Positions 1 to 5,963 of a DNA stretch of 6,619 nucleotides are shown one piece after another. How positions within the stretch are numbered: the first letter of the stretch is position 1; the number at the start of each line of letters is the position of its first letter. Source of the DNA: a bacterium (GTDB taxonomy: Bacteria; UBA9089; CG2-30-40-21; SBAY01); contig JBFLYA010000208.1 in the NCBI GenBank assembly GCA_040757115.1, positions 1 to 6,619 on the forward strand. The letters run 5' to 3'. The translations under genes were made by a program, and so were the position numbers. A model generated the notes under the pieces. The model was not told the DNA's origin. It worked only from the letters and a program-made list of their open reading frames with translations, and searched no databases.

Positions 1-65
1 TTTGTGGGTAACTTTTAACACCTCTATTATTATCAATTTCCTCCAAAGAGCAAAATGCAAAACTC

Positions 66-176
66 GTTTATAGTTTAGGGTTTATAGTTTATAGTGTATA
101 GTTTATAGTTTATGGTTTATAGTTTATAGTCTATAGTCCTTCAACTATAAACTATCAACTATAAACTATCAACTAT
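66..176. repeat. Palindromic heptamer array (TTTATAG unit)
   Basis: The left arm (66-137) is roughly ten near-copies of the heptamer TTTATAG, with variants such as TTTAGGG, TGTATAG and TTTATGG. After a short spacer (138-142) the right arm (143-176) carries the complementary units CTATAAA and CTATCAA. The array could therefore fold into one long hairpin. It is not CRISPR: the units abut with no unique spacers. Function unknown. Confidence 0.85.
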
Positions 177-263
177 CTACTACATTTCAGCGTTAAAATA
201 GTTGAAGCAAAGATATTACCAAATTCCTCCAACTCTTTGAGAAACCATGCTACTTCCTTTTTG

Positions 264-308
264 AAATTTGATTTGTAATTTTGCATTTTGATATTTGATA
301 TTTATTTG
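264..308. repeat. Degenerate heptamer tract (TTTGATA-like)
   Basis: Successive T-rich units recur about every 7-8 bases: ATTTGAT, TTTGTAA, TTTTGCA, TTTTGATA, TTTGATA. The last two are near-identical tandem copies. This is probably a small repeat array of the kind seen at 66-176, and no gene overlaps it. The repeat character is weaker than in the first array because the units vary. Confidence 0.5.
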
Positions 309-353
309 TTGTCTCCCCCAAATCCTATTTTGCAGAACCCTACTGAGTGATAT

Positions 354-525: not shown

Positions 526-587
526 GTTCAACCCAGCGCTGCACCTGACCCTCGCTTCGCTCGGGCAGGTGAGATTGGTCGTTAGCT
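526..587 (+). other. attC1 recombination site
   Basis: R'' is GTTCAAC (526-532) and R' is GTTAGCT (581-587), with cleavage expected between G581 and T582. On folding, AAC pairs with GTT and CCA (533-535) pairs with TGG (576-578). CACCTG (542-547) pairs with CAGGTG (566-571), A548 is an extrahelical base, and CCC (549-551) pairs with GGG (563-565). The length of about 62 bp, paired end boxes, bulged base and variable apex are the standard attC design. It marks the left edge of cassette A. Confidence 0.85.
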
Positions 588-616
588 CAATAAATTCTAA
601 AAAGCAAGGTTGAAAA

Positions 617-907
617 ATGAAAATAGAGAAGAAATTCAAAAGATTAAAAGAAATAAAAGCAGACATTCAAAAAAGTTATTTTATAAAACAAATTGGGGTG
701 TTTGGCTCATATATTAGAAAGGAAGAGGAATCTGAGAGTGATTTAGATATTTTGGTTGAATTCTATAAACCAATAGATATTTTTAAATTTATGGAATTAG
801 AAAGATTTCTCTCCGAAGAATTAAATATTAAAGTAGACCTTGTAAGTAAAAAAGCCTTGAAGCCTTTTATAGGAAGAGAGATTTTAAAGGAAGTAGTATA
901 TGTCTAA
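617..907 (+). CDS. MntA-like nucleotidyltransferase antitoxin
   Basis: This is a 96-residue minimal nucleotidyltransferase of the MNT family. The hallmark GSx10DxD motif is present (G30, S31, then D42 and D44) and a third acidic residue, D74, lies in a VDLV strand, so the metal-binding triad looks intact. In characterised MntA-HepT systems this protein is the antitoxin and inactivates HepT by adding AMP units to a tyrosine in the toxin's RX4HXY motif. The length is typical of the family. The ATG at 617 has a weak AAGG ribosome site about 7 nt upstream. The 3' end overlaps the start of the toxin gene by 8 bp, so the two are probably translationally coupled. The pair is the cargo of cassette A, and the promoter at 448-477 is the best candidate to express it. 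The family is clear; activity is inferred. Confidence 0.9.
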   Translation: MKIEKKFKRLKEIKADIQKSYFIKQIGVFGSYIRKEEESESDLDILVEFYKPIDIFKFMELERFLSEELNIKVDLVSKKALKPFIGREILKEVVYV

Positions 908-1262
908 GAGCGAGTTTAGAGATTCTTTGGTAGATGTTTGGAAAGAAATAGAACATATAGAAAGGTTTTCAACATCTCTTAATTATGAAGGATTGATGGA
1001 AGACGAGAAAACTCTGTATGCAATTGTAAGGTGTTTTGAAATTATTGGCGAGGCAGTAAAGAATATTCCAGAAGAGGTTAAAGAAAACTATTGCCAAATT
1101 CCATGGAAAGATATGGGGGGAATGAGGCACAAATTAATTCATGAATACTTTGGGGTTGACTATGAAATATTATGGGAGACCATAAAACATAGAATCCCAG
1201 AACTAAGAAGGGAATGGTTAAAGATACTGGAAGATTATGAATTAAAAGAGATTCAGAGCTAA
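900..1262 (+). CDS. HepT-like (DUF86) ribonuclease toxin
   Basis: This 120-residue, largely helical protein is of the HepT/DUF86 family, HEPN-fold RNases that act as toxins. The catalytic RX4HXY motif is complete (R76, H81, Y83). Upstream, R44 in the segment RCFEIIGEA matches the other conserved helix. Y83 is the residue an MntA partner would modify. The start at 900 lies inside mntA and has AGGA (888-891) about 8 nt upstream. The stop codon (1260-1262) lies inside the R'' box of attC2, as is common for cassette genes packed against their recombination site. Expected role: an RNase restrained by MntA, stabilising the array or acting in phage defence. Which of these applies here cannot be told from sequence. 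Confidence 0.9.
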   Translation: MSKSEFRDSLVDVWKEIEHIERFSTSLNYEGLMEDEKTLYAIVRCFEIIGEAVKNIPEEVKENYCQIPWKDMGGMRHKLIHEYFGVDYEILWETIKHRIPELRREWLKILEDYELKEIQS

Positions 1263-1318
1263 CAACTCGGCTATCAGCTAACCTCTCTTCGTTCGGTAGA
1301 TGAACTCTATCGTTAGCC
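1256..1318 (+). other. attC2 recombination site
   Basis: R'' is GAGCTAAC (1256-1263) and R' is GTTAGCC (1312-1318), with cleavage expected after G1312. The first eight bases of cassette A (G581 onward, GTTAGCTC) are the exact complement of this R'' box. In the central stem TCA (1274-1276) pairs with TGA (1301-1303) and CTA (1278-1280) with TAG (1297-1299). A1281 is extrahelical and CC (1282-1283) pairs with GG (1295-1296). The L boxes pair poorly. The site ends cassette A and opens cassette B. Confidence 0.78.
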
Positions 1319-1352
1319 GTACAAATTTTATCAATACAACAGGAGTTAGGTT

Positions 1353-2021
1353 ATGAAAAGTAGATTCCAAGATATACTATTCATACTTTTTGCTGTTGTA
1401 GTCATACCATTTTGCTATTGGACTTGTGGTATGAGAGGTCTTGCTGTTTTGGCATGGGCTTTTTTCTTACCACTCTATGTGCTGCGACTTGTAATCTGGT
1501 CTTTCTGGACAAGGTTGAAATCCTGGTTATCAGCTAAATGTACAGCCATATCCTGGAATATATTGGCATTCGGAGTCGGGGGAACTTTGGGAATTATTGT
1601 GTGGTTTGTGTTGTCCACAATCCTAAATGTTCCAAGATTTATCTTGCCCAAATGGTTGCAAATGCTCGGGTTTCTTATTGCAACAGTGGGATTAATATTG
1701 GCATTGTGGGCACAATGGCTTCTTGGCCTTCAAACTGCCATTCTTACGACTCGTATATTTGGCAAGGACAAACAAGAAGAGCGAAGAGTAGTCAGTACGG
1801 GTCCATACGCTATATTCCCTCATCCGATATTTTTAGGTGAGTGGTTAACTATAATTGGATGCTTTCTTTTAACATCACAGATTTCTCTGCTCATGTTATT
1901 ATTGATTGCTTTTTTATCAGACATGTTTGCGGCGAGCAGAGAAGAAAGAGATTTGCAAGAGCGATTTGGGGAGGAATACAAAACTTATCGCTCGCGGTTC
2001 TCCGTTTGGAAGCAATTGTAA
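1353..2021 (+). CDS. Integral-membrane methyltransferase, ICMT/PEMT-like
   Basis: This 222-residue membrane protein has hydrophobic segments at about residues 9-22, 29-50, 66-90, 100-128 and 160-188. The cytosolic signature GPYxxxxHPxxxG (G150 to G162, with H157) followed by EERDLxxRFGxEYxxYRxRF (197-216) is that of the ICMT and phospholipid N-methyltransferase family. These enzymes transfer a methyl group from S-adenosylmethionine to a membrane-embedded substrate. The bacterial substrate is usually unknown and cannot be called here. ATG 1353 has a good AGGAG site (1341-1345), 7 nt away. It is the only gene of cassette B. No promoter is evident in the 40 bp ahead of it, so it may depend on read-through from cassette A. 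Overlapping frames at 1538-1840 and 1841-2029 are shadows and do not indicate a frameshift. Confidence 0.85.
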   Translation: MKSRFQDILFILFAVVVIPFCYWTCGMRGLAVLAWAFFLPLYVLRLVIWSFWTRLKSWLSAKCTAISWNILAFGVGGTLGIIVWFVLSTILNVPRFILPKWLQMLGFLIATVGLILALWAQWLLGLQTAILTTRIFGKDKQEERRVVSTGPYAIFPHPIFLGEWLTIIGCFLLTSQISLLMLLLIAFLSDMFAASREERDLQERFGEEYKTYRSRFSVWKQL

Positions 2022-2044
2022 GAAAGTGAATTAATGAGAAGTTT

Positions 2045-2101
2045 GGCTAACGAATTAAGAATTTGTGTGGAGCAACGCTGACACACAATTCTGGGTTGAA
2101 C
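2045..2101 (+). other. attC3 recombination site
   Basis: R'' is GGCTAAC (2045-2051) and R' is GTTGAAC (2095-2101), a perfect GTTRRRY, with cleavage expected after G2095. The R'' box is the exact complement of the start of cassette B (GTTAGCC at 1312-1318). The fold is strong: AGAATT (2058-2063) pairs with AATTCT (2087-2092), T2064 is extrahelical, and GTGTG (2065-2069) pairs with CACAC (2082-2086). An apical AGC/GCT stem (2071-2073 / 2077-2079) has an AAC loop. The single bulged base is what integrases use to choose the strand. Confidence 0.88.
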
Positions 2102-2225
2102 TAACGCAATGGAGTATTATTTGGAATTTGAATAAAAGGCTATTTTGTATTTGGTAGGTTTAGTTATCTATTTTTGAGACTTCTATAGTCCGCTTTAATC
2201 CAGCTGTGAATGATTTTAATCAGCA

Positions 2226-2320
2226 CTTTTTCTTCTTGACATCAAATATCCTAATATGCTAAACTTAAAATAGTTCTACAAAGCTGGCAAAAAAACTGCC
2301 ACAAAGTGGCGTAGTTCAAC
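2226..2320 (+). repeat. 95-bp direct repeat, copy 2
   Basis: This is 93/95 identical to 438-532 at a constant offset of 1788 bp. The two differences lie in the promoter spacer (2253) and just after the second hairpin (2311). The promoter boxes and both stems are therefore unchanged. The repeat ends at the last base of the attC4 R'' box. Homologous recombination between the copies would delete a 1788-bp segment holding cassettes A and B. Confidence 0.95.
2236..2265 (+). promoter_or_regulatory. Sigma-70-type promoter, copy 2
   Basis: TTGACA (2236-2241) and TAAACT (2260-2265) are 18 bp apart, with TG of an extended -10 at 2257-2258. Transcription would begin near 2272-2274 and reach rnhA at 2480 after a leader of about 205 nt that includes the whole attC4 hairpin. 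The same competing hairpins as in copy 1 lie at 2285-2310. Confidence 0.65.
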
Positions 2321-2428
2321 GAATCATTGCAGCGGACTGCGGGGGAGCTGAGCACTTCTCAAAGTTTTGTTATGTATATAAAGTTTAGTGGCAATTCTCC
2401 CTGCCGCCGATGAACTCAAGCATTAGCT
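2314..2428 (+). other. attC4 recombination site, variant R' box
   Basis: R'' is GTTCAAC (2314-2320), the complement of the start of cassette C. R' reads ATTAGCT (2422-2428), with A where the invariant G of GTTRRRY should be. At about 115 bp it is the longest site here. The arms around 2328-2348 and 2397-2413 (GGGAG with CTCCC, CGG with CCG) give only an imperfect stem. The lost G and weaker fold suggest reduced or lost recombination at this junction. The complement test still identifies it as the end of cassette C. Confidence 0.65.
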
Positions 2429-2479
2429 GGTTGCGCCAAAATCGAGAAGGTATTCTGAAGACGGTGGATTTTGTAATAA

Positions 2480-3229
2480 ATGAGCCCAAAAAAGAAAAAA
2501 CAATACTATGTAGTCATACAGGGGCATAAGCCGGGAATCTACGATAAATGGTATGGACCAGGCGGTGCCGCAGAACAAGTTGTGGGATTTCCTGAAGCGC
2601 TTTATAAAGGATTCTACACTCAGGAAGAAATACATAAGTGGTTGAAGGAACCTGGTGAAACATCCTTTCTATTGGAGCGTATTCCTGAATTACTCGACAA
2701 ACCTGCTTGTTCACCACTTGAAGATTCCAATGCTTTGATTAAAAGAAGAGAGGTAGTGATTTACACCGACGGAGCGGCTATTAGCAATCCAGGACCCGGT
2801 GGTTATGGCGTGATTCTCCTTCACAAAGGGCGGAGGAAAGAACTATCCGGCGGTTACCGTCTGACGACTAATAATCGCATGGAACTGCGTGCTTGTATCG
2901 TTGGACTCAAGGCTTTGAAGTTCAAGTGTTCAGTGGTTATCTGGACTGACTCAAAGTATGTAATTCACGGTATTACTAAAGGCTGGGCAAGGCGATGGCG
3001 CGCCAACAACTGGATGCGTGGTCCAGAAAATAAGGCCGAAAATCCAGATTTATGGGCAGAGTTACTTGAGTTGTGTGAAAAACACGATGTGAAATTTAGA
3101 TGGGTAAAGGGACATGATGGCAATCCGCAAAACGAACGATGTGACCAATTGGCAAACAAAATGGCCAGACGAAGAGATTTGCCAGCAGACGAAGTTTATG
3201 AAACCATGAAAATCAAAAAGGACAGATAA
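2480..3229 (+). CDS. rnhA: Ribonuclease HI with N-terminal hybrid-binding domain
   Basis: This 249-residue RNase H1 cleaves the RNA strand of RNA-DNA hybrids. Residues about 8-55 (YYVVIQGHKPGIYDKW through FYTQEEIHKWL) form the RNase H1 N-terminal hybrid-binding (viroplasmin-like) domain, more familiar in eukaryotic enzymes and absent from the roughly 155-residue E. coli type. A linker (about 60-90) leads to the catalytic domain, with the DEDD set complete: D97 (YTDG), E135 (MELRA), D157 (TDSKYV) and D222 (NERCDQLA), plus catalytic-loop H212 (VKGHDG). The ATG at 2480 precedes the whole hybrid-binding domain, but its ribosome site is weak (GGTGGA, 2463-2468). The stop codon lies within the R'' box of attC5, which supports its being cassette cargo. 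By eye it is less A/T-rich than mntA-hepT, consistent with a separate origin. Likely expressed from the cassette C promoter. Confidence 0.93.
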   Translation: MSPKKKKQYYVVIQGHKPGIYDKWYGPGGAAEQVVGFPEALYKGFYTQEEIHKWLKEPGETSFLLERIPELLDKPACSPLEDSNALIKRREVVIYTDGAAISNPGPGGYGVILLHKGRRKELSGGYRLTTNNRMELRACIVGLKALKFKCSVVIWTDSKYVIHGITKGWARRWRANNWMRGPENKAENPDLWAELLELCEKHDVKFRWVKGHDGNPQNERCDQLANKMARRRDLPADEVYETMKIKKDR

Positions 3230-3288
3230 CCAATCGCTGAAGTTGACGGTGGGGGATAGTCGCACACCGCTTATTTCAGTCGTTAGAA
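3224..3288 (+). other. attC5 recombination site, last in array
   Basis: R'' is AGATAAC (3224-3230) and R' is GTTAGAA (3282-3288), with cleavage expected after G3282. Against the start of cassette D, CAGATAAC differs from the expected CAGCTAAC at one base. In the stem CTGAA (3237-3241) pairs with TTCAG (3275-3279), then a mismatched segment, then CGGTG (3247-3251) with CACCG (3265-3269) around a 13-nt apex. R' lacks the final pyrimidine. It closes cassette D. No partner complementary to the following bases is found after valS, so the array appears to end here. Confidence 0.7.
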
Positions 3289-3329
3289 AGTATTAAAAAG
3301 ACCAAAAAGAAAGGTAAAGGACAAATGAA

Positions 3330-5963
3330 ATGGATATTCCAAAATCTTACGACCCACATACAGTTGAAAAAAAATGGTATAAATTCTGGCAAGAAAATAA
3401 CTATTTTTATGCCAATGCTAACTCTGATAAAAAAACATTTTCTATCGTAATCCCTCCTCCGAATGTTACCGGCTCTCTTCACATGGGGCATGCCTTGAAT
3501 AATACCCTTCAAGATATTTTAATCCGATTTAAAAGGATGCAAGGATATAATACCCTCTGGCTTCCCGGAACAGACCACGCCGGTATTGCCACCCAGAATG
3601 TGGTTGAAAAACAACTTCGCCAAGAAGGTTTAAAAAGACACGATTTAGGGAGAGAAAAATTTATTCAAAGGGTCTGGGAATGGAAAAGACAATATGGAGA
3701 TTTGATTATTGAACAATTGAAAAGGTTAGGGGCATCCTGCGATTGGTCAAGAACACGATTTACAATGGATGAAGGATTATCTAAAGCGGTGCGAGAGGTT
3801 TTTGTCTCTCTTTATCAACAGGGATTTATCTACCAGGATTATTATATTGTAAATTGGTGTCCAAGATGCCAAACTGCATTAGCCGATATTGAAGTGGTGT
3901 ATAGAGTTATAAATGGCCACCTGGATTATATTAAATATCCCGGAGACAATGACCAGGCAATAATCGTTGCAACAACAAGACCGGAGACAATGTTAGGCGA
4001 TACAGCCGTTGCGGTTAATCCAGACGATAAACGATATAAACACCTGATTGGCAAGGAAGTGATATTGCCTATTTTAGGTCGAAGGCTTAAAGTCATAGGT
4101 GATAACTTTGTTGACCCTGAATTTGGCACAGGGGCAGTGAAGGTTACCCCAGCACATGACCCAAATGATTTTGAGATTGGTAAAAGGCACTCACTTCAGC
4201 AAATCAATATCCTCAATCCAGATGCCACAATGAATGAAAATGCAAGTCATTACCAGGGACTGGATAGATACGAATGTCGAAAAAGATTAGTCGAAGATTT
4301 AAAGGCACAAGGATTGTTAGTTAAAAGACAAGAATATTCCTACTCGGTCGGACATTGCTATCGCTGTGATACAATTATTGAGCCTTACTTATCCCAACAG
4401 TGGTTTGTCCGAATGAAGGAGCTGGCTAAACCAGCGATTGAAGCCGTCCAATCTGGTCGGACAGAGTTTATCCCTAAAAACTGGGAAAAGACATATTTTG
4501 AGTGGATGGTGAATATCAAAGATTGGTGCATCTCAAGACAAATATGGTGGGGACACCTGATACCTGTCTGGTATTGTCAAAAATGTAAAGCCACTTTAGT
4601 GGAAAGAGAGGACCCAACTAAATGTCTTAAGTGTGGGAGTAATGAATTGATTCAAGACCAGGATGTGCTTGATACCTGGTTTTCCTCAGCATTATGGCCA
4701 TTTTCTACACTCGGTTACCCGGAAAAGACAAAAGACCTATCTACATTTTATCCCACTTCCGTGCTTTCTACTGGTTTTGATATTATCTTTTTCTGGGTGG
4801 CAAGGATGATGATGATGGGATTGAAATTTATGGGCAATGTCCCTTTTAAGCAGGTCTATATCCATGCCTTAATTAGAGATGCCGAAGGACAAAAAATGAG
4901 TAAATCCAGAGGCAATGTCATTGACCCACTGGAAGTAATTGATAAATACGGCACAGATGCACTTAGATTTACACTGGCAATTATGGCTGTGCAAGGCAGG
5001 GATATTCTTTTATCTGAGGAAAGAATTGAAGGATACCGACATTTTTGTAATAAATTATGGAACGCCGGCAGATTCATTTTGACGAATTTAGAAGATTATG
5101 TTCGGAATTCAAAATTCGAAATTCGAAATTCGAAATTTTTATCATTAGCCGATAAATGGATTCTAAGCCGACTTAATCAGGTAATCGAAAAGGTAACCGA
5201 GGGGATAGATTCATATCGTTTTAATGAATCTGCTCAAATACTTTATGACTTTATCTGGCATGAATACTGTGATTGGTATTTAGAATTAATCAAACCAGAA
5301 TTAGGAGGGCAAAGAAGGAAGATAACACAACAGTTATTAATAGATACCTATGAGGCAATTTTAAGACTTCTGCATCCGTTTATGCCATTTATTACCGAAG
5401 AACTATGGGAGAAATTACCTGTTCACAAGACAACAAATTCTATTATGGTTACTCCCTGGCTAACATTCAATCCAGACCAGATAGATTTAGACTCAATAAA
5501 GGATATGGATTTGATTAAGGAAATAGTTGTTTCTATCCGCACGATTCGTTCAGAGATGAAGATACCCCCTCAAGTAAAATTTAAAACAGTCATTATTAAA
5601 AGTAAACCCTTTGCCCCATTGGAAGAAAATATCGTCTATGTGACATTTTTGACTCATACGGCTGAAGTAATCTTTGATTTAGATGCCACCAGGCCATTTG
5701 GAGCCGCTGTAATCATCGTTAAAGGAGTTGAGATTTATGTCCCATTAGCCGAAGTTGTTGATTTAGGTAAAGAAGAAGAACGATTGAGTAAAGAACTTTC
5801 AAAGGTAGAAAAGGAATTAAACTTACTTGAGGCGAAATTATCCAATGAAGATTTTATCACAAGAGCCCCAGTTGAGGTGGTTGATAAAGAAAAAGAAAAG
5901 TTAGAATCTTACATCTCAAAACGCGATAAGTTAGTGATGAGTTTAAAATATTATTTTCATTAA
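3330..5963 (+). CDS. valS: Valyl-tRNA synthetase
   Basis: This 877-residue class I aminoacyl-tRNA synthetase charges tRNA-Val in the cytoplasm. Its length is close to typical bacterial ValS. The HIGH motif is HMGH (51-54) in PPPNVTGSLHMGH, and the KMSKS motif is intact (522-526). The editing domain carries TTRPET (about 214-220) and GTGAVKVTPAHDPND (about 268-282). A CxxC pair (CQKC, CLKC) precedes DQDVLDTWFSS and probably binds zinc. A C-terminal coiled coil spans about 810-872. The ATG at 3330 has AGGA (3318-3321) 8 nt upstream; the nearby ATG at 3325 is out of frame. The gene starts 41 bp after the last attC site and is probably the chromosomal flank rather than cargo. Oddity: an in-frame heptamer array encodes residues 593-603 between the catalytic core and the anticodon-binding domain. 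No terminator is obvious after the stop. Confidence 0.98.
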   Translation: MDIPKSYDPHTVEKKWYKFWQENNYFYANANSDKKTFSIVIPPPNVTGSLHMGHALNNTLQDILIRFKRMQGYNTLWLPGTDHAGIATQNVVEKQLRQEGLKRHDLGREKFIQRVWEWKRQYGDLIIEQLKRLGASCDWSRTRFTMDEGLSKAVREVFVSLYQQGFIYQDYYIVNWCPRCQTALADIEVVYRVINGHLDYIKYPGDNDQAIIVATTRPETMLGDTAVAVNPDDKRYKHLIGKEVILPILGRRLKVIGDNFVDPEFGTGAVKVTPAHDPNDFEIGKRHSLQQINILNPDATMNENASHYQGLDRYECRKRLVEDLKAQGLLVKRQEYSYSVGHCYRCDTIIEPYLSQQWFVRMKELAKPAIEAVQSGRTEFIPKNWEKTYFEWMVNIKDWCISRQIWWGHLIPVWYCQKCKATLVEREDPTKCLKCGSNELIQDQDVLDTWFSSALWPFSTLGYPEKTKDLSTFYPTSVLSTGFDIIFFWVARMMMMGLKFMGNVPFKQVYIHALIRDAEGQKMSKSRGNVIDPLEVIDKYGTDALRFTLAIMAVQGRDILLSEERIEGYRHFCNKLWNAGRFILTNLEDYVRNSKFEIRNSKFLSLADKWILSRLNQVIEKVTEGIDSYRFNESAQILYDFIWHEYCDWYLELIKPELGGQRRKITQQLLIDTYEAILRLLHPFMPFITEELWEKLPVHKTTNSIMVTPWLTFNPDQIDLDSIKDMDLIKEIVVSIRTIRSEMKIPPQVKFKTVIIKSKPFAPLEENIVYVTFLTHTAEVIFDLDATRPFGAAVIIVKGVEIYVPLAEVVDLGKEEERLSKELSKVEKELNLLEAKLSNEDFITRAPVEVVDKEKEKLESYISKRDKLVMSLKYYFH
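5106..5140 (+). repeat. Heptamer array inside valS (AAATTCG unit)
   Basis: Three exact AAATTCG heptamers plus flanking partial units lie within the valS coding frame. Three heptamers make 21 nt, so the protein also repeats every seven residues (NSKFEIR then NSKF, residues 593-603). The location is the surface linker before LADKWILSRL, where an insertion should be tolerated. It looks like a repeat of the intergenic type that has entered the gene without breaking it. Confidence 0.85.

Follow-up and report, generated by a model that had tools for sequence, protein, structure and literature searches.

The 6,619-bp contig JBFLYA010000208.1 (C208), analysed here over its whole length and referred to as the window, belongs to a 4.32-Mb bacterial genome (G000; 462 contigs, 99.87% complete) and carries an integron cassette array adjoining the chromosomal gene valS. 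Table 1 lists the features of the locus. Three gene cassettes, encoding an MntA-like and a HepT-like protein (cassette A), a methyltransferase (cassette B) and an RNase HI (cassette C), share the array with two copies of a mobile element, and not with the fourth cassette that an earlier reading made from the letters alone (the sequence-only reading) had proposed, although the coordinates of that reading were otherwise correct. The arrangement is very probably that of a cassette array next to valS into which two non-autonomous copies of an IS91-type element have been inserted, in both cases within an attC site and exactly at its R'' box.

Table 1. Features of the window, followed by related features on other contigs of G000 (positions outside the window are given with their contig or locus labels; assignments to the IS91 type are the best readings discussed in the text).
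Feature	Position	Strand	Remarks
Dispersed repeat with long AT-rich palindrome, resembling a miniature inverted-repeat transposable element (MITE)	36-342	.	Within left part of element copy 1; similar stretches on several other G000 contigs
IS91-type element right end, copy 1	343-532	- (strand of lost transposase genes)	98% identity to 2226-2320 over 95 nt; same end in 6 G000 copies and in relatives; outward (+) promoter-like site 448-477; hairpin 510-522; terminal GTTCAAC
attC1 hairpin	533-581	+	Own R'' displaced by element copy 1; cut 581/582
Cassette A	582-1312	+	MntA-like nucleotidyltransferase 617-907 (PF01909/PF18765); HepT-like RNase 900-1262 (PF01934); R'' 1256-1263; attC hairpin 1264-1312
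Cassette B body	1313-2051	+	PEMT-type methyltransferase 1353-2021 (PF04191); R'' GGCTAAC 2045-2051
IS91-type element copy 2, internally deleted	2052-2320	- (strand of lost transposase genes)	At R'' box of cassette B attC; unit conserved order-wide; subterminal hairpin 2059-2092; inverted repeat 2095-2103 / 2312-2320; outward (+) promoter-like site 2236-2265; hairpin 2298-2310
Cassette B attC hairpin	2321-2422	+	Separated from own R'' by element; cut 2422/2423; 77% identity to a stretch of C30; right part in common with long attC class
Cassette C	2423-3282	+	RNase HI with N-terminal Cauli_VI domain 2480-3229 (PF00075, PF01693); R'' 3224-3230; attC hairpin 3231-3282
valS, chromosomal gene adjoining array	3330-5963	+	PF00133 and others; 98.5% identity in congener G001
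Cassette promoter (Pc) plus attI-like sites	L010 10417, 15127; L013 minus 16434; L170 minus 19747; L175 1718; L189 minus 604		
Copies of the MNT/HEPN-type cassette of about 914 nt	L018 (C116) 3441-4409; L175 (C329) 2297-3260; L189 (C231) minus; L172 (C282) minus; L182 (C93) two copies		
Block of about 222 nt	L014 1138, 3005, 9160, 9821, 12048; L188, L182, L176 and others		

The window holds a genuine gene-cassette array, as the sequence-only reading had it, and the array is part of a large integron system of the chromosomal type. A covariance model trained on 12 attC sequences from G000, with attC1 and attC2 among them but not attC5, matched three of the five attC-like sites that had been named, namely attC1 (523-589) at 77.8 bits, attC2 (1254-1320) at 55.4 bits and attC5 (3221-3290) at only 20.3 bits. 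Of the other two, the fourth has a real hairpin (2321-2422), but one that is the split-off half of the attC site of the methyltransferase cassette, and the third (about 2045-2101) is the left hairpin of the element. The same model found at least 39 sites in a whole-genome scan, 110 in the G000 contigs examined, and matches in all seven of the order members searched; a scan of Rfam gave no relevant match. The G000 sites fall into two length classes, of about 65 nt (short) and about 137 nt (long). The DNA of attC1 recurs at more than a dozen places in G000, and elsewhere in the genome this hairpin class carries a normal YTAAC R''.

No integron integrase gene (intI) or attI site linked to the array is present on the 6,619-bp contig, which begins 523 bases before attC1, so that the array may be, as the sequence-only reading proposed, either the distal part of a chromosomal integron or a cluster of attC sites that lacks an integrase. 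Contig C39 carries an intact integron integrase (IntI) of 460 aa (L010 13613-14995) with a promoter and attI to its right, several other G000 contigs contain broken or partial integrases, and a plasmid tblastn search with the C39 protein confirmed the integrase family and nothing beyond. The C39 integrase has an N-terminal extension of about 140 aa without a Pfam domain, and extended integrases related to it are found in anammox planctomycetes, Desulfobacterota and Nitrospirota. In addition, G000 contains several Pc plus attI-like sites (TATAATAACTTG|TTAG; Table 1), as if several integron platforms coexist. The system shares with sedentary chromosomal integrons and with clusters of attC sites lacking integron integrases (CALIN) the R''-hairpin-R' layout of attC, cassette starts complementary to their own R'', genes of toxin-antitoxin type, and an integrase with attI elsewhere in the genome. 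However, it differs from them in its very different attC classes (hairpins of about 46 to 120 nt), its several broken integrases and its several attI-like sites.

The sequence-only reading had considered the array proven by cassette starts that complement the R'' box at their own far end, an argument that holds for the first two cassettes and, statistically, for the genome as a whole. Across 79 neighbouring site pairs, the 7 bases following the fixed GTT were compared with the reverse complement of the far-end R'', yielding 4.54 matches out of 7 against 3.59 after shuffling (standard deviation 0.11); the maximum of 10,000 shuffles was 4.03, and none of the 10,000 reached the observed value. 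The same starts gave 3.87 matches to the in-place R'', and with the repeated module and the element left out the result was 4.55 compared to 3.33 shuffled (standard deviation 0.15). The start of cassette A (TTAGCTC) matches its own R'' at 8/8 bases, which is equalled by none of 75 other G000 R'' boxes, and the start of cassette B (TTAGCC) fits its own R'' and is equalled by only one of the 75. Cassette C does not discriminate, and its 7/8 match is uninformative: after the G it continues for just 3 bases, a length that 74 of the 75 unrelated R'' boxes equal. The 9/9 complementarity formerly ascribed to a third cassette, between GTTGAACTA (2095-2103) and TAGTTCAAC (2312-2320), is an inverted repeat that lies entirely within the element and recurs in element copies elsewhere. 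The element passes the start/R'' test because its ends, if joined, fold into a long-armed structure resembling an attC site. Likewise, the argument that differing R'' boxes exclude shared repeat ancestry fails for this supposed cassette, where 2226-2337 and 438-549 are ends of one mobile element.

The stretch 2052-2320 is a single unit, conserved across the order, whose insertion point is the R'' box (YTAA|C) of unrelated attC sites. Window positions 2226-2337 repeat 438-549 at 92% identity, and the block common to both ends where R'' ends (532 and 2320). Beyond this right end, an attC hairpin follows in all six G000 copies, with five different hairpins among them. The left block, made up of the hairpin at 2059-2092 and the bases after it, is constant on the left of the right block in complete copies. 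The full unit, from ATTAAGAATTTGTGTG to TTAGTTCAA, was found in C208, C197 and C261, with single ends in C231, C56, C28 and C209; both unit ends are present in G003 and G005, and ends with the same boundaries recur in G001, G003, G005, G006 and G007. Every G000 copy is bordered on its left by YTAAC or YTAAT, which is the R'' box of an unrelated cassette, and in C56 the R'' to the left of the element (CAGATAAC) fits its own cassette start, TTATCTG. The ends are distinct from one another and have subterminal hairpins, there is no long target duplication, and the G000 copies diverge from one another by 2-10%.

These boundaries bear on the proposal that 2096-2422 is an ordinary cassette, perhaps a promoter cassette, with its own attC, which would give the window four cassettes and five attC sites. 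Both the 9/9 complementarity of GTTGAACTA to the far-end TAGTTCAAC and the fold of the circle-joined ends of 2096-2422 agree with that proposal, yet it is quite improbable, since the hairpin that travels with the 2096-2422 body is the left one and the hairpins on its right are of five kinds in G000, whereas cassettes carry their attC on the right. Furthermore, the unit starts within the R'' box that precedes it rather than at a G|TT cut, and relatives hold IS91-type genes within it. Other origins were considered for the repeated 95-nt tail and rejected. The G000 attI-like sites end in ...TATAATAACTTG|TTAG and the tail does not, which argues against attI plus Pc; an ordinary promoter cassette was discarded when the left hairpin proved constant; and repetitive extragenic palindromic (REP) sequences with a Y1_Tnp gene account for the leader of another repeated block, not for the tail.

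Because of its homology to IS91-type coding relatives, the unit is best interpreted as an IS91-type element that has lost its interior, is non-autonomous and splits the attC site of the methyltransferase cassette. Contig C184 of G007 shows, in order, the left hairpin, a transposase with Zn_Tnp_IS91 and Y2_Tnp domains, a tyrosine recombinase of the Phage_integrase family and the conserved promoter region, with both genes on the minus strand. On contig C96 of G003, both ends surround remnants of a transposase of this type (71-80% protein identity) inside an attC site. A Y2_Tnp search of G000 returned no transposase, including in the window copy. The IS91 family has a subgroup with an additional tyrosine recombinase gene, and the Zn_Tnp_IS91 and Y2_Tnp domains, the adjacent Phage_integrase gene and the hairpins near both ends are all common to that subgroup and the relatives described here. 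Compared to the IS91 family, the element stands at the R'' box of attC, and its copies in the window are short and lack genes.

Several observations weigh against an IS91-type element inserted at R''. The transposase frame of the G007 copy is broken and the last part of its right end is missing, and no copy was found in which both genes and both ends are intact. Contig C94 of G005 has no R''-like left flank, and on contig C122 of G004 the right side shows no clear attC hairpin. The methyltransferase cassette was not found in uninterrupted form, and its empty site is deduced from other attC sites. Promoter-like sites in the whole region are little more frequent than in shuffled sequence (9 versus 6.4). 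In addition, G000 is a fragmented metagenome assembly in which misjoins at repeats are possible, and many of its 462 contigs terminate in repeats, so that the mosaic junctions could be misassemblies between repeats. Such an artefact is highly improbable given that the same end boundaries are seen in G001, G003, G005, G006 and G007, and the divergence among the G000 copies means that they are therefore not one collapsed repeat.

It is also possible, but rather unlikely, that the unit moves as a cassette-like circle and enters by site-specific recombination at R'' (AA|C), through its own tyrosine recombinase or through IntI acting on the attC top strand, and not by HUH rolling-circle transposition; this differs from the IS91-type explanation in the enzyme only. 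A crossover at AA|C mirrors the normal G|TT cut, the joined ends are attC-like and the coding relatives have a tyrosine recombinase, while R'' crossover is a mechanism that, as cited in PMC12901181, Partridge 2000 proposed for delta-attI cassettes. However, the extrahelical base of the joined site is on the same side as in the attC sites of the array, which predicts insertion at R', and yet all copies are at R'' and in one orientation; in addition, relatives of the unit carry IS91-type zinc-finger and HUH domains. Recombination of the top strand by IntI is approximately 1000-fold weaker than that of the bottom strand (PMC8946536), and as the sole cause it is disfavoured by the polarity of the extrahelical base.

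Among relatives compared at the valS locus, the congener G001 has counterparts of the RNase H cassette and attC5 that are 96% identical. Its gap-free homology stops at window position 2432, which is 10 nt inside the predicted cassette start at 2423 (cut 2422/2423), and the cassettes further left are absent. Junction differences between relatives at predicted cuts are documented in this one case. In the family-level relatives G002 and G003, no cassette was present on the short stretch examined directly upstream of valS. A repeat-rich stretch of about 450 nt lies between attC5 and valS in G001 (L244 1147-1597) and is absent from the window.

Mobile elements that target cassette attC sites are already known in the form of IS1111-attC elements and group IIC-attC introns (PMC11187229, PMC9229058), and the element described here resembles them in this respect. 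Unlike IS1111-attC elements, with their RNA-guided DEDD transposase, or the introns, which are retroelements, its relatives code for a tyrosine recombinase together with an HUH transposase. Membership of the IS1111-attC group was rejected, as the coding relatives carry Zn_Tnp_IS91, Y2_Tnp and Phage_integrase domains rather than an IS110/IS1111 DEDD transposase. In Shewanella, the IS91-like ISShvi3 lies beside an attC site and forms a new cassette structure, and no insertion sequence interrupting attC was detected there (PMC9229058). The literature searched on IS91 with attC, hybrid attC and mosaic attC described no IS91-type element targeting attC, although papers outside it may exist.

On the IS91-type explanation, the element would insert at YTAA|C so that its left end, which bears a hairpin, abuts the R'' of the host cassette and what remains of the attC hairpin lies beyond its right end, and transposition would be driven in trans by an HUH transposase or its partner tyrosine recombinase. 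The split attC site of the methyltransferase cassette should recombine poorly. Both window copies contain a sigma-70-like site (TTGACA-18-TAAACT with a preceding TG; 10 of 12 consensus bases) that is conserved in relatives. This outward promoter-like site would transcribe the next cassette, that is, MntA/HepT after copy 1 and RNase HI after copy 2, and the element may switch on cassettes in this manner. A terminator-like hairpin within the element points the opposite way to the promoter-like site. The pairing of the right-end hairpin is kept across genomes, with 94% of cells paired compared to 21-41% when slid, and both-sided changes in 4 cells. An outward promoter at one end, here a predicted one, is a feature in common with ISCR1, whose outward promoters raise the expression of downstream genes (PMC6218425).

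A more doubtful extension is that an IS91-type lineage has become specialised on integrons, with joined ends that mimic attC, insertion at R'' and the supply of a promoter, and that cassette bodies are re-paired with foreign attC hairpins when copies of the element recombine and are then cleanly lost. If true, this would explain six copies of an MNT/HEPN-type cassette that have different hairpins after the same R''. The cassette in question, about 914 nt long with a gene named from its translation, occurs in copies of 76-100% identity to that of C116, each with the R'' GCCTAAC followed by a different attC hairpin or remnant, and the hairpins look exchanged between related bodies. Homologues without the TTAG start or attC are found on C54 of G000 and C371 of G001 (about 73%). 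A separate block of about 222 nt consists of half a REP-like palindrome (GGGTCAAACC...), a linker and a 137-nt attC, and about 40 copies of it are fused to unrelated upstream DNA. The block is sometimes located inside older attC sites and looks like a ready-made attC attached to new DNA, and a full REP-like palindrome occurs near a Y1_Tnp gene in L228.

The attC sites determine which genes an integron can mobilise, and distal cassettes are usually silent for lack of a promoter. An element that homes in on attC with a promoter of its own would activate distal cassettes and, in addition, either freeze them or re-pair them. Such an element also misleads attC annotation, as its ends are attC-like and its body passes the cassette-end test. 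Together, the exchanged attC hairpins and the 222-nt block of half-REP and attC bear on the still open problem of cassette origin.

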